Positions 6,269 through 51,346 of a stretch of DNA of 64,000 bases are shown here, one piece after another. The DNA is from a virus: positions 1-64,000 of IMG/VR virus record IMGVR_UViG_3300017917_004441; one strand, written 5' to 3'. Made by a program: the position numbers and the translations under genes. Within the stretch, counting starts at the first letter, position 1. Every line of letters begins with the position of its first letter. The notes under the pieces were generated by a model. That model did not search any database. It worked only from the letters and a program-made list of their open reading frames with translations, and was not told the DNA's origin.

Positions 6269-6736
6269 TTAACAATACGACCCTGAACAACGTTTTTTTC
6301 CGTCATTACCTGGCATCTTTCCTTTACAAACTTGTACGGCATACCCATTTGAATATGCTGAGGGATATACGTCATATTTGGCTTTTGCCGCCGCTACACC
6401 TCTTGCACAAAGTTTGTTTTTCTTTTTCTTTTTGGCTTCCTCTATCTCTTCAGATTCGGATAGTGTTTCTTCAGAGGATAGTTCATTCATGAAAAACTCG
6501 TAGACATGATCTAAATTTTCTTTAGCCTTTGAAATATGATCGTCAGCCCAATCGTGTCCATTTTGAATTAGTTGATCAATGTACTCAGGTTGAATACTCA
6601 TCAAATCATCAATTTGTCTTTTCATCTGTTCCAAATTTCCAAAGAACATGTAGTTTTCGGTTTCTCTTTGTTCTACTAATTTTTGTTTGATCAATTCAAG
6701 TAGATCGGATTCTTTCAGTTTAATTACTTTTCTCAT
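6269..6736 (-). CDS. Small protein with N-terminal targeting-like helix and C-terminal Cys domain
   Basis: The protein has 155 residues. The N-terminus (MRKVIKLKESDLLELIKQKL, then VEQ) resembles a short helix seen at the ends of many T4-like marine phage proteins, and its LVE at residues 20-22 fits the (L/I)xE rule of the T4 prohead protease (inference). An acidic middle is followed by a Lys run and a C-terminal Cys-containing module (LCARGVAAAK, DVYPSAYSNGYAVQVCKG, CSGSYC) that I have seen in other phage proteins but cannot name. The start overlaps the preceding gene's stop as ATGA, implying translational coupling with the baseplate gene at 6733. Confidence 0.65.
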   Translation of the reverse strand: MRKVIKLKESDLLELIKQKLVEQRETENYMFFGNLEQMKRQIDDLMSIQPEYIDQLIQNGHDWADDHISKAKENLDHVYEFFMNELSSEETLSESEEIEEAKKKKKNKLCARGVAAAKAKYDVYPSAYSNGYAVQVCKGKMPGNDGKKRCSGSYC

Positions 6737-46594: not shown

Positions 46595-46870
46595 TTCAAT
46601 ACAAGCACCTCTTTCCAAACTAATTTCATCCCATTCTTCATCAATTCTACCTGAATCAGGTCGGATGATGACATTAGTCATGGCTTTGATTTTAACTCTG
46701 TCAGTTGTATTTGAATTTAATTGAAGATCACAGGAATCAACTCCCCTTACCACTATAGCATACTCACCATTTGTGGTATATTTTCTTTCAGAAACAATTG
46801 CGGACTCGGATGTTCTTACTCTGTTTCCGTTTATAATTTTTTCTACGGGGATTGTTTTGATTATTGACAT
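46535..46870 (-). CDS. Small beta-rich protein, probably virion-associated
   Basis: The 111-residue protein is beta-rich (YAIVVRGVDSCDLQLNSN, VKIKAMTNVIIRPDSGR) and ends WYILSSDGLKIW, a style shared with C-terminal domains of phage fibre or decoration proteins. It follows the neck-like gene with a TAATG junction, so it is probably expressed with it. Its last 60 nt overlap the end of DNA polymerase in the opposite orientation. No precise family is recognised. Confidence 0.65.
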   Translation of the reverse strand: MSIIKTIPVEKIINGNRVRTSESAIVSERKYTTNGEYAIVVRGVDSCDLQLNSNTTDRVKIKAMTNVIIRPDSGRIDEEWDEISLERGACIELVSINKGWYILSSDGLKIW

Positions 46871-47988
46871 TATACAACAGTGATTGGAATGGTCATCGGC
46901 CTATACTTCAACTGAGTATTCAAGTTGGTTGCGATTTCAGCCTCTTTTTTCATTTGGTTTTCAGGACGAAGTCTCTCTAATCTCTGTTGTAATTCAGTTA
47001 CAAGAGTTACTTTTTCATCCTTGGCTTCGGTTTGTAGTGATTGGTAATCCATTTGAACTTCACTATCAGGAGTTTTCAGGTTACCACTAAATTTACCACG
47101 AACACGGGCTAGTGTTTCTTTACAATATGCGGTGAACCATCTTCTTACCCAAACTCTTGCCGGTTCGTTCAAGTCAACCCACATTATTTCACTCAAAGGT
47201 ACATCTGATGGAAGTTTTACGATATCAGGATTATCTTTCAAACAAAGATCTCTTTCATCACCACAAACCTCGTAATACCAATACCAAACTTTACCTCTTG
47301 TAAGTTCAGAATCTCCAAAATCAAATTTACCACCAGGTGTATTGAACAACCATACAGCCTTTTTACCATCAGGTAATGCGGTTACTTGGTATTGTAAGTC
47401 AGGTTGAATCAATCGTCTTTTTACGTTGATATCCTGAAGTCTTGACATAACGTCATACGATGAGAAGAAGAAGTATCCACCACCACCGTAACCTGTTTGT
47501 GCAAAACCACCAGGTCCACCCAAACCACCAGGTCCCCCTAAAGCACCGAAAGCCCAAGGGTCAAACAACATATTGTTTTCTTCAGCTGGTGAATACCACA
47601 AAAGTTGGTTGATTTCTCTACAAGCCGGAATCTCATATATTTGTTGGTTAGGTACCAGTTCAAAATAGTCCCTTTTCAAAACATATGGACCCGCATTTTG
47701 AAGACCGGCAATTTTTGAATAAGCATAGGTATATTGAGTTTCCCAATCCAAAGTTCTTCTGATCAAAGCGTTTGCCAATGATTCAGTTTCTAAGTTTAGT
47801 CCATATAAAGAAGTCCATTGAGATTCAATTAACCAATCTTGTACATACTGTGAATAATCTCCAATTGATAATTCTAATAAAGAATCCATCATCTCATATT
47901 CCAATTCTACAGCTCTGAGAGGTGCTCCCAACAAATTTAAAATTCTATTGTAGAATCTACTTCTTTCTGGTTCAGGGATAACTGCCAT
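46870..47988 (-). CDS. gp13-like neck protein candidate
   Basis: The protein has 372 residues. The C-terminal half (RWFTAYCKETLARVRGKFSG, then KTPDSEVQMDYQSLQTEAKD) matches a conserved pattern that I recall from gp13-type neck or adaptor proteins of T4-like marine phages. A Gly/Pro/Phe-rich stretch (about residues 149-170) interrupts the middle. In T4, gp13 and gp14 seal the portal and join head to tail. The gene has a TATTTATA box 14 nt upstream and is isolated from the other neck-like genes (51389-52947). The assignment is by memory of family patterns, not by search. Confidence 0.55.
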   Translation of the reverse strand: MAVIPEPERSRFYNRILNLLGAPLRAVELEYEMMDSLLELSIGDYSQYVQDWLIESQWTSLYGLNLETESLANALIRRTLDWETQYTYAYSKIAGLQNAGPYVLKRDYFELVPNQQIYEIPACREINQLLWYSPAEENNMLFDPWAFGALGGPGGLGGPGGFAQTGYGGGGYFFFSSYDVMSRLQDINVKRRLIQPDLQYQVTALPDGKKAVWLFNTPGGKFDFGDSELTRGKVWYWYYEVCGDERDLCLKDNPDIVKLPSDVPLSEIMWVDLNEPARVWVRRWFTAYCKETLARVRGKFSGNLKTPDSEVQMDYQSLQTEAKDEKVTLVTELQQRLERLRPENQMKKEAEIATNLNTQLKYRPMTIPITVV

Positions 47989-48018: not shown

Positions 48019-49536
48019 TCAGAATTGGTACAAAATAGAAGATTCGGGGAAGTAATATGCCCCATCTTTTATTTGGGAATCTTTGTTATCAAAAACTACA
48101 ATATCTTTTCCTCTTTTGACAAAAACCATCCAATCGGTGTTGTATTTTTTGACGTTAGCACTACCCTCTATTTTGAGTTCACCATCTTCATTGATGATTG
48201 AATTGAATGGTTTGATTTGTGCGGTATACACTTTTCCATCAATTCTGATTTTCATATCTACACCCATCATATCTTCCTTACTACCCAATTCACCTATCCT
48301 GTTGATATTTTCAGGACCAAATTTTTCTTTGAATTTCTTCTCAACAAGATCTTCTGTTTTGTTACCTTTCTCTGAGGTTTTTACCAAAATATTGAAAATC
48401 GTTTGAAATGTTTTTGAATTTGGATCAAAGATTCTAAATTTCAGTTGATTCATGAATCCCAACATTCTAGCCATTTCATTAATTTGTTCTTGTTCGTTTT
48501 TTCCCACGAAGTTGATTGGTTCCATATTTGCCCTGACCAAAACCAAATTCAGATCACGCATTAGTGGACAAAAAGCACTATAATTCGTGTTCAAATAATT
48601 GATTATTGATCTACCCGGCTTTTCAAAGTCATACACACCACTACTGGTTCTTGGTGCGTATTCGTTTCTTTCATAATGCTTATCGGCAAACACCTCGGCC
48701 AAAAATTTCATAATAGCGTCTTGATACATTGTCAAAACTGTGAGATTATTGTTGAACATTTCTCTGATTTTAGCCCTTTCTTGGTCGGAACAAGCTTGAA
48801 CTTTAGTCTGTTCTTTCATAATTCTTTTGATGGAATTACTCTCTTGAATATTTTTCTTGGTCAGTCTTTCCAATTCCTCTTCAACAAATTCCCAATTCAC
48901 GACTTTCCAAAAGTTTTTGATGTACTCATCTCTTTTGTTTCTGTACTTTAGATAATAGGCGTGTTCCCATAGATCCAATCCCAACAATGGATGACCACCT
49001 TGTTTTATAACATTCATAAGTGGGTTGTCCTGATTGGCGGTTGTCATAATTTTGAGTGTACCTCTTTTGGTTAGTACAAGCCAAACCCAACCTGATCCGA
49101 ATCTTTTCTTGGCGTATTCTTCAAACTTCTTTTTGAAATTCGCGTAGGATCCAAAGTTGGAATTGATCTTCTTTAGGATACCTTCTTTGGGTTCCATCTC
49201 TGTTGGAGACAACATTTTCCAAAATATCGCGTGGTTGTAAGCCCCACCCGCATTATCCCTTACAGACTTGGAAAACCTTTCAATTGTTTTGATAATTTCT
49301 TCCAACGAAAGATCACCATAATTTTTTCCTTCTAATGCGTCATTGAGTTTGGAGATGTATCCTTTATAGTGTTTGTTATAATGGATGTTCATTGTCTCGG
49401 GGTCAATGAACTGACGTAAGGCTGAATATCCGTAGGGTAATTTCTCTGCTCTGATTTTTTTGGCTTCGTGAAGTTGTTCTTGGTTTTGACGGATACGTTC
49501 TTCTAAGAGTTGTATTTTGTTTTTTATATTTCTCAT
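48019..49536 (-). CDS. Fe/Mn superoxide dismutase fused to a PD-(D/E)XK-like nuclease
   Basis: The protein has 505 residues. Residues 31-230 form a complete Fe/Mn SOD: all four metal ligands are present as His52 (IHYNKHY), His102 (YNHAIFW), Asp188 and His192 (LGLDLWEHAYYLKYRN). After a linker with IKRIMKEQ (about residue 237-243), the C-terminal ~260 residues include a helix TEDLVEKKFKEKFG (Glu) and the pattern GSKEDMMGVDMKI ... YTAQIKPF, i.e. E...D...Q-x-K of the PD-(D/E)XK nuclease fold. SOD removes superoxide; a nuclease partner is unusual. The N-terminal 30 residues are helical. A TATTTATA box precedes it. Confidence 0.85.
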   Translation of the reverse strand: MRNIKNKIQLLEERIRQNQEQLHEAKKIRAEKLPYGYSALRQFIDPETMNIHYNKHYKGYISKLNDALEGKNYGDLSLEEIIKTIERFSKSVRDNAGGAYNHAIFWKMLSPTEMEPKEGILKKINSNFGSYANFKKKFEEYAKKRFGSGWVWLVLTKRGTLKIMTTANQDNPLMNVIKQGGHPLLGLDLWEHAYYLKYRNKRDEYIKNFWKVVNWEFVEEELERLTKKNIQESNSIKRIMKEQTKVQACSDQERAKIREMFNNNLTVLTMYQDAIMKFLAEVFADKHYERNEYAPRTSSGVYDFEKPGRSIINYLNTNYSAFCPLMRDLNLVLVRANMEPINFVGKNEQEQINEMARMLGFMNQLKFRIFDPNSKTFQTIFNILVKTSEKGNKTEDLVEKKFKEKFGPENINRIGELGSKEDMMGVDMKIRIDGKVYTAQIKPFNSIINEDGELKIEGSANVKKYNTDWMVFVKRGKDIVVFDNKDSQIKDGAYYFPESSILYQF

Positions 49537-49561: not shown

Positions 49562-49569
49562 TATAAATA
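49562..49569 (-). promoter_or_regulatory. TATTTATA box before the SOD-fusion gene
   Basis: Exact octamer on the minus strand, 25 nt before the ATG at 49536. Confidence 0.55.
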
Positions 49570-49579
49570 CCCCCACTTT

Positions 49580-51346
49580 TTATCTTCTGCTATTAATTGA
49601 CTTGAGAATTTCTTCTACATAGTCACCACTTGATTCCTTATCACCCATGATAGTTTCAAAAATATCCTTTTTCTTTTTTAGAATATCGTAAATAATTCCT
49701 TCAATTGTGTTGTCAAAAATCGGGTAATAAACCAATACATTGTTTTTTTGTCCGTATCGGTATGCTCTGTCCTCAGCTTGTGAGTGGTCTGATGGAAGGA
49801 ACGATAAATCGTTCATCACCACCGCTTCTCCTGAGGTCAGGGTAATACCAGTACCTGCCGCTTTGATGTTTCCAACAAATACTTTTACTGACTCATCATT
49901 TTGGAACTTGTCAACGGATTCTTGACGTTCTCTTTGGTTCATTGAACCATCAAGTCTCACCGCCTTTTTTCCAAAGTGTTCCAATATCATCTCAAGGGTT
50001 TTGGTAAAGTTGGTAAAGACAATAACCTTCTTGTCTTGTTCAATAATGTTCTCACACAGTTCAATGGTTGAGGATACTTTCTCTTGGGCGATACATTGGC
50101 GAACTTGGGTTAGTTTGGTGAACTGAAGGGTCAGGGAGTCCGCCTCACCACTTTTATCATACCAATCGTAATAGTCCCCCATAAGTTCCTCATATTGTCG
50201 TGAGCGAAGTCTCAGGTATACTGGAGTGATGATTTTATCGGGTAGATCAAGTACGTTTTCTTTTAGTCTACGTAAAACCTGTGGTTTTGTTCTGTCACGG
50301 AGTTCTTCCAAATTGGATGATCCACTGACGTTCCACACTTTTCTTTTTCCCGCTCTGAATTGGAATCCGTTACAGTATCTTTTTACATAAGCCATCCAGT
50401 TCACCGCAACGGGTGAGTCAATCAGGTTCAGAAGATTGTAATAATTGATAGGACGACTTGTGATGGGGGTACCAGTGAGTAACCACAAGCGTTCTACTTT
50501 TGAAGCAAAATCATTTATGAGTTTGGTTCTTTGGGCTTGTTTGTTTTGAATATAATGAGCCTCGTCAATAATAACCAAGTCAAACCCAGAATTAAGAATA
50601 ATTGAATCTTTCCGATTTTTCTCATCGTGGAAATTTTTAATGATATCGTAGTTTATAATTACAAAGTCGGCGTCCTCCCATTTCTTACCTTCAATGATTG
50701 AAGTGGTACGATCGGTGTAATTTTCAATTTCTCTTTGCCAGTTGATCTTCAGAGATGCTGGACAAATGATGAGGATTTTCTTTGACTTTGTCTCAAGTGC
50801 CGCTATGATGGTTGAGGTTGTCTTACCCAATCCCATGTCGTCAGCCAAAATCATTTTTTTGTTCTCACACAACTTTTGGATTGCCTCCTTTTGGTGTTCA
50901 AGTGGCGGACGGTGTGAATAGTTTGAATAGTCAATCTCAACATTCTTTACCGTATTGTCTTTGATAAGGGCAACTTTTGGTAACCAAAAGTCGTGAACAA
51001 AATCTTTTTCAAAAAACTTACCCCAAATATGATATGAGGTATCTTTTTCCACCAATAACTTTTCAATGTAAACTTGTTGGGGTATTGAGGTGAACAGTTT
51101 GTCATCGGCAATCTTCTGTGCGAAATATGGGTCCAAGTCAACCCACTTTTTGGCTACTTTGGGAACCCTTGAATGGAAGTTGATGATGTATTCTGACTGT
51201 GCACGGGTGGGGTAAAACTTTGGATTGTCCAACATTTTGGTTTTCAAACGCAAGATATAATTGTTGGCACCTTCGTATTTTTCCAACAGTTCCAATGCTT
51301 TACGCTCCAAAACGCCTACAGCTGATATGTTTGTCTGTTCTTCCAA
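49580..51346 (-). CDS. SNF2-family (SMARCAL1-like) DNA helicase
   Basis: The protein has 588 residues. Walker A is ADDMGLGKTT (168-177), DEAH at 261-264, LLTGTP motif III, and the C-terminal lobe ends with QAEDRAYRYGQ (motif VI). This set is typical of SNF2 and especially SMARCAL1/HARP-type annealing helicases, which remodel stalled forks. It may fill the role of T4 UvsW, which has a different domain order. No ATG precedes the conserved region: the start is TTG at 51346, or the Met at residue 38. The N-terminal 145 residues are likely specific to this phage lineage. Confidence 0.85.
   Translation of the reverse strand: MEEQTNISAVGVLERKALELLEKYEGANNYILRLKTKMLDNPKFYPTRAQSEYIINFHSRVPKVAKKWVDLDPYFAQKIADDKLFTSIPQQVYIEKLLVEKDTSYHIWGKFFEKDFVHDFWLPKVALIKDNTVKNVEIDYSNYSHRPPLEHQKEAIQKLCENKKMILADDMGLGKTTSTIIAALETKSKKILIICPASLKINWQREIENYTDRTTSIIEGKKWEDADFVIINYDIIKNFHDEKNRKDSIILNSGFDLVIIDEAHYIQNKQAQRTKLINDFASKVERLWLLTGTPITSRPINYYNLLNLIDSPVAVNWMAYVKRYCNGFQFRAGKRKVWNVSGSSNLEELRDRTKPQVLRRLKENVLDLPDKIITPVYLRLRSRQYEELMGDYYDWYDKSGEADSLTLQFTKLTQVRQCIAQEKVSSTIELCENIIEQDKKVIVFTNFTKTLEMILEHFGKKAVRLDGSMNQRERQESVDKFQNDESVKVFVGNIKAAGTGITLTSGEAVVMNDLSFLPSDHSQAEDRAYRYGQKNNVLVYYPIFDNTIEGIIYDILKKKKDIFETIMGDKESSGDYVEEILKSINSRR

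Follow-up and report, generated by a model that had tools for sequence, protein, structure and literature searches.

The window analysed here is a 64,000-nucleotide stretch of viral DNA (positions 1 to 64,000 of the IMG/VR record IMGVR_UViG_3300017917_004441). According to the ORF analysis of the window, a single ORF of 505 aa on the minus strand fills positions 48019-49536 exactly, while the plus strand is rich in stop codons and closed over the same interval. Its product joins a predicted superoxide dismutase (SOD) to a predicted nuclease, with an SNF2-type DNA helicase gene upstream and a neck gene downstream (Table 1). At nearly all loci, the SNF2 helicase gene is followed by those for SOD-nuclease, head-tail adaptor, w111 and DNA polymerase, in this order.

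Table 1. Coordinates of the SOD-nuclease gene, its predicted parts and its neighbours in the window.
Feature	Position	Strand	Basis or remark
SNF2-type DNA helicase, upstream neighbour	49580..51346	-	phrog_62, E = 5e-116; conserved neighbour
TATTTATA box (gene strand), upstream of the ORF	49562..49569	-	candidate phage promoter or leader element
SOD-nuclease fusion, complete ORF including stop codon, 505 aa	48019..49536	-	one ORF, 505-540 aa in relatives
N-terminal helix, residues 1-24, ending at (L/I)xE (E24); proposed capsid-targeting propeptide	49465..49536	-	conservation, model
Predicted Mn-type Fe/Mn-SOD, residues 30-225; ligands H52, H102, D188, H192; Q169	48862..49449	-	Pfam, PDB, alignment
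Variable linker, residues 226-249, with two (L/I)xE motifs	48790..48861	-	alignment, local conservation, model
E232 codon	48841-48843	-	conserved Glu, linker
E242 codon	48811-48813	-	conserved Glu, linker
Helical domain, residues 250-390, signature GRSxINxLNTNYSxFC; part of the nuclease module	48367..48789	-	conserved
Predicted PD-(D/E)XK (PD-QxK) nuclease core, residues 391-505; E395, D422, D427, Q440, K442	48022..48366	-	alignment, model
Head-tail adaptor (neck) protein, downstream neighbour	46870..47988	-	phrog_211, head-tail adaptor Ad2, E = 3.5e-9; conserved neighbour

Scans of IMG/VR retrieved 112 distinct homologues with the SOD and 13 without it, which were reduced at 90% identity to 64 homologues (56 with and eight without SOD). 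Nearly all relatives carry SOD and nuclease in one ORF. On a single contig (L120:5249-6810), the two lie in overlapping reading frames that switch within the linker, which represents either a sequencing error or a natural split. An assembly artefact or a chance pattern is ruled out by the 112 distinct fusions and the invariant residues: the E-D-QxK and SOD ligand pattern goes far beyond chance, as it is invariant across homologues that diverge from one another by over 10%. The mean conservation is higher in the SOD half (0.80) than in the remainder of the protein (0.53-0.61).

The preliminary description knew of no fusion between a SOD and a nuclease. Neither a phage SOD-nuclease fusion nor a phage virion SOD was described in the literature searched. 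The statement does not stand for the databases: a homologue of 501 aa from an uncultured Caudovirales phage (A0A6J5L953) was already present in UniProt, deposited under the name 'superoxide dismutase' only. Its module is homologous to that of the window protein, with 37% identity and a TM-score of 0.91 for the C-terminal part, and it is the best match among viral structure models; the deposited name omits the nuclease half. SODs, PD-(D/E)XK nucleases and T4-type internal proteins are all known kinds of protein; no description of their combination was found in the searches.

The TATTTATA box is located at most 90 nt upstream of the gene in 61 of the 64 homologues, versus 2.5 expected in shuffles. 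In gene direction, the window contains 17 such sites versus 4.7 expected (for example, at 180, 8207, 36793, 43230, 48003, 49562 and 57293), mostly 11-76 bases ahead of gene starts, those of the neck and tail-tube genes among them. In the leaders of the SOD-nuclease genes, it often falls inside a predicted hairpin (mean z -1.9). The box is a candidate promoter or leader element of the clade.

The window's own record opens in the last codons (3' end) of the major capsid protein gene gp23, with gp21 expected beyond its end, and neither a prohead protease nor bS21 was found in it. Among the relatives, bS21 is present in nine of 17 records and adjoins gp21 on the opposite strand wherever both were found. 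Freshwater myoviruses with bS21 are predicted to infect Bacteroidetes and carry this gene on the strand opposite to the terminase, portal, protease and capsid genes (PMC9723584). From the bS21-gp21 arrangement in the relatives, together with the closest cellular SODs, which are mostly from Bacteroidota, we infer that the window belongs to a T4-like myovirus of freshwater Bacteroidetes. The plus strand (542-2938) also encodes, close to the capsid gene's 3' end, a 798-aa protein consisting mainly of GTSGSSG-type repeats, likely a virion fibre or adhesin.

The dismutase and nuclease halves

Residues 31-220 match the Pfam families Sod_Fe_C (E = 5e-41) and Sod_Fe_N (E = 4e-20), both above the cut-off, and the best PDB sequence match is a Sphingobacterium Mn-SOD (E = 2e-59). 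All four metal ligands are present in each of the 56 non-redundant SOD-bearing homologues. Q169, within the sequence NQDNPLM, is present as well, at the glutamine position of Mn-type SODs. The domain shares all ligands, the fold and 45% identity over ~199 residues with the Mn-SOD of Sphingobacterium sp. T2 (SodA type, PDB 6gsc), and Foldseek returned a TM-score, by target, of 0.86 versus Mn-SOD. Unlike the bacterial Mn-SOD, the phage SODs are fused, bear conserved motifs on their flanks and cluster separately. These data support a complete Mn-type Fe/Mn-SOD, predicted to be catalytic, in line with what the preliminary description had read from the four ligands.

The nearest cellular SODs are about 50% identical and mostly from Bacteroidota. 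In the tree, a branch with a support of 100 parts the phage SODs from the bacterial ones, of which 78 were included, most of them from Bacteroidota; the placement of two short bacterial rows (L304 and L327) is not reliable. A bacterial origin of the fusion is contradicted by this split and by the bacterial SOD loci, none of which (0/80) contains the C-terminal half.

For residues 226-505, searches of Pfam, PHROGs, NCBIfam, PADLOC and the PDB sequences yielded no named family. Membership of the PD-(D/E)XK superfamily does not require sequence similarity to a named family. The E-D-QxK pattern noticed earlier corresponds to E395, D427, Q440 and K442, and D422 is additionally invariant: all five residues are found in 64/64 homologues. 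For residues 243-505, AlphaFold2 produced a model from 64 sequences with a pLDDT of 91.6 and a pTM of 0.84. In the PDB, this model comes closest in fold to the homing endonuclease I-Ssp6803I, to Hjc resolvases and to the restriction enzyme NhoI, all of which are PD-(D/E)XK proteins; the first five matches have a probability of 0.94-1.00, the E-values are weak (0.013-0.1, with 0.013-0.06 for the first five), and the fold alignments show 9-16% identity. In the model of the full protein, a long helix contains E395, a strand begins at D427, and the strand that follows carries Q440 and K442, a placement that fits the PD-(D/E)XK fold. PDB hits to a viral DNA polymerase X are weak, with E-values no better than 0.1, and conflict with both the fold and the motif. 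Fold and motif support the prediction of a PD-(D/E)XK-like nuclease in the C-terminal half. The preliminary description had named structure prediction of this part as the result that could overturn its nuclease assignment; a nuclease-like fold was obtained and, together with the invariant motif, the high model confidence and the superfamily of the best PDB matches, it strengthens the assignment.

The predicted core fold and the E/D/QxK arrangement are shared with I-Ssp6803I, archaeal Hjc and the NhoI/BisI family. The NhoI family forms a PD-QXK subgroup with an Mrr-like catalytic site (PMC11347163). In contrast to all these enzymes, to which the sequence similarity is undetectable, the phage core is preceded by a helical domain of its own. 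The five residues (one Glu, two Asp, one Gln and one Lys) are likewise retained in remote members having the C-terminal module only, namely a protein encoded by a 735-kb phage (L271), the L272 copy and the zinc-ribbon paralogues of L046, L055 and L060 described below. This predicted PD-QxK nuclease family without a name is kept in every homologue examined.

Further copies of the module were encountered. A 295-kb relative carries a second, diverged copy without SOD (L272, G001:178583-178897), and another diverged module without SOD is contained in a marine phage protein of 1113 aa (BFVD A0A8D9CCA0), the second-best match among the viral models. Near the SOD-nuclease gene, three relatives encode paralogues of ~500 aa with the same nuclease module and a zinc-ribbon-like segment at the N-terminus (L055:4121-5629, L046:3939-5432 and L060:4110-5630, all on the minus strand).

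Conserved Glu motifs and loss of the dismutase

Three Glu residues are conserved amid the variable linkers: E24 in 55/56, E232 in 56/56 and E242 in 55/56 of the SOD-bearing homologues. Leu or Ile is located at position -2 in 51, 52 and 54 of the 56, respectively, and a few members have V two positions ahead of E24 and E232. The motifs of the window protein itself read QLHE, NIQE and IMKE, the third having Met instead of Leu or Ile at -2. Within the linker of residues 226-249, the local conservation is 0.45-0.51 and the model confidence drops to 55-59; residues 1-24 are helical in the model, with low confidence. No conserved [LI]xE in a comparably variable context was present in the alignments of eight neighbouring gene families. 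The linker includes the segment IKRIMKEQ (residues 236-243), of which the preliminary description had remarked that it resembles a capsid-targeting or processing segment. Its Glu, E242, ends one of the conserved (L/I)xE motifs, and this conservation among homologues makes the earlier hunch considerably stronger.

The protease gp21 of T4 cleaves behind the Glu of L/I-X-E, and the T4 internal proteins are directed to the head by N-terminal propeptides of 10-19 residues (PMC9026906). A gp21-type prohead protease was detected in seven of the 12 long relatives, in all cases above the Pfam cut-off, these records all being classed as possible fragments. Moreover, the major capsid protein gp23 has a similar site, ...[HYF]LINE|A..., some 60 residues into the chain in all five relatives compared. 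Processing by a head protease at the (L/I)xE motifs is, as a prediction, well supported.

Similar helices occur elsewhere. A small protein of the window (6269-6736, minus strand) opens with an LxE-terminated helix, MRKVIKLKESDLLELIKQKLVE, and its relative at L181:221-697 starts with MKTVRLSETELTNLIKKVLGE; the helix of the window protein is possibly a similar head-targeting peptide. The start of a zinc-ribbon nuclease paralogue, MKIVITESQILTLLE, ends in LxE as well.

The SOD-free forms are nested at two places within the SOD-bearing tree. In one of these, L235 differs from its close sister L163 by an in-frame deletion of the SOD, which starts a little way behind the first motif, ends a little way ahead of the last (INE|MKKIEIEK-LKSIISE|GKSERC) and leaves both motifs in place. 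In the other group, the N-terminal helix is fused straight to the last motif. The nested positions and the leftover SOD N-terminus in L235 indicate losses rather than gains. The nuclease is kept in every SOD-free lineage, and no separate SOD gene was found in the SOD-free records of 308 and 318 kb. The SOD thus behaves as a removable cassette between cut-like sites, and its repeated loss beside a retained nuclease points to two independent enzymes on one delivery chain, not to a coupled enzyme. A redox sensor coupled to the nuclease, as had been proposed in the preliminary description, is disfavoured, because the SOD was lost at least twice while the nuclease stayed, and because conserved cut-like sites separate the halves.

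A putative packaged polyprotein and its alternatives

The (L/I)xE motifs flanking the SOD suggest packaging of both enzymes in the head and their injection when the phage infects. In the interpretation that we prefer, with a probability of roughly 60%, the SOD-nuclease would be a head-packaged polyprotein cut by gp21, both enzymes of which are injected with the DNA. This internal head (ejection) protein would consist of an N-terminal capsid-targeting helix, the Mn-type SOD, a linker, and the helical domain with the PD-QxK nuclease. During head maturation, the gp21-type protease of the phage would cut after E24 and after E232 and/or E242, giving a targeting peptide, free SOD and free nuclease inside the capsid. 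SOD and nuclease would then enter the cell together with the phage DNA. The SOD may serve to clear superoxide, either as infection begins or within the virion, and the nuclease may attack DNA in the newly entered cell, with host DNA as the likeliest target. From sequence we infer that the protein is packaged, cleaved and injected, that its two halves are active, and what they target.

The polyprotein is favoured by the intact active sites, the conserved motifs, and gp21 and the gp23 LINE|A site in the relatives, by the SOD-free forms nested twice and the L235 deletion that leaves the motifs, by the adjoining neck gene and an upstream box common to neck, tail-tube and other genes, and by the precedent of PBCV-1 for the cargo pair. 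It is weakened by the M-K-E of the third motif in the window, by the V at -2 for E24 and E232 in a few members, by a window record that starts at gp23 and by the weak E-values of the PDB fold matches. Furthermore, a nuclease that is active would have to be held in check inside a head full of DNA, be it through metal, specificity or DNA modification.

The single ORF in nearly all relatives and the intact active sites of both halves would also suit an uncut bifunctional enzyme working inside the cell, where the SOD, possibly acting as a redox sensor, shields phage DNA synthesis against oxidative damage, and the nuclease attached to it breaks down host DNA or works against a defence. This is unlikely, as the nuclease was kept through two SOD losses and as such an enzyme would leave unexplained why the disordered linkers flanking the SOD contain conserved motifs.

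Quite improbable, too, is a role of the nuclease in DNA packaging as the clade's junction resolvase or debranching enzyme, a Hjc-like equivalent of T4 gp49 at the portal, with the SOD as an optional rider. Hjc resolvases are indeed among the top fold matches, the nuclease is retained everywhere, and helicase and neck genes adjoin. EndoVII, RuvC, RusA and Hjc are unmatched in near-complete relatives of ~295-322 kb, a search by which other resolvase families were possibly missed. However, a resolvase would account neither for the (L/I)xE motifs nor for the targeting-like N-terminal helix, and the SOD would have no evident role in packaging. Finally, a non-cutting PD-(D/E)XK fold, ejected as a DNA-binding or anti-restriction protein in the manner of T4 IPI, the internal protein known to block a restriction enzyme (PMC9026906), would avoid the hazard of an active nuclease within the head, but it is very improbable, given that E395, D422, D427, Q440 and K442 are kept in all 64 homologues and in the remote paralogues, as a catalytic site predicts.

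Comparison with known packaged proteins

The proposed polyprotein resembles the T4 proteins IPI-IPIII and Alt, which are processed by gp21 and ejected, in its propeptide-like N-terminal helix, its (L/I)xE motifs, the gp21-type protease and T4-like head genes found in relatives, and a likely role early in infection. Unlike these proteins, to which its sequence is unrelated, it has two enzyme domains per chain, with motifs between the domains besides the one at the N-terminus, and its presence in the virion is a prediction. If conserved (L/I)xE motifs in variable linkers do mark such proteins, packaged effectors of uncultured T4-like phages could be recognised by them.

The cargo itself has a counterpart in the chlorovirus PBCV-1, which packages a late-made SOD and restriction endonucleases, the latter thought to begin the breakdown of host DNA within minutes (PMC7019647). 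The pair of a SOD and a DNA endonuclease is the same, but in this virus of eukaryotic algae, the enzymes are separate proteins and the SOD, a Cu/Zn-SOD, is of an unrelated fold class; furthermore, packaging has been shown for PBCV-1, whereas it is predicted for the phage SOD-nuclease. Certain phages are sensitive to the oxidative stress of the host (PMC8540345). A virion-borne SOD, if confirmed, would make it directly testable whether superoxide at infection limits phages, and an antioxidant and a nuclease would be joined in one delivery chain. On balance, we lean towards a payload of Mn-SOD and PD-QxK nuclease, cut from a polyprotein in the capsid, as an independently evolved counterpart of the packaged chlorovirus enzymes.
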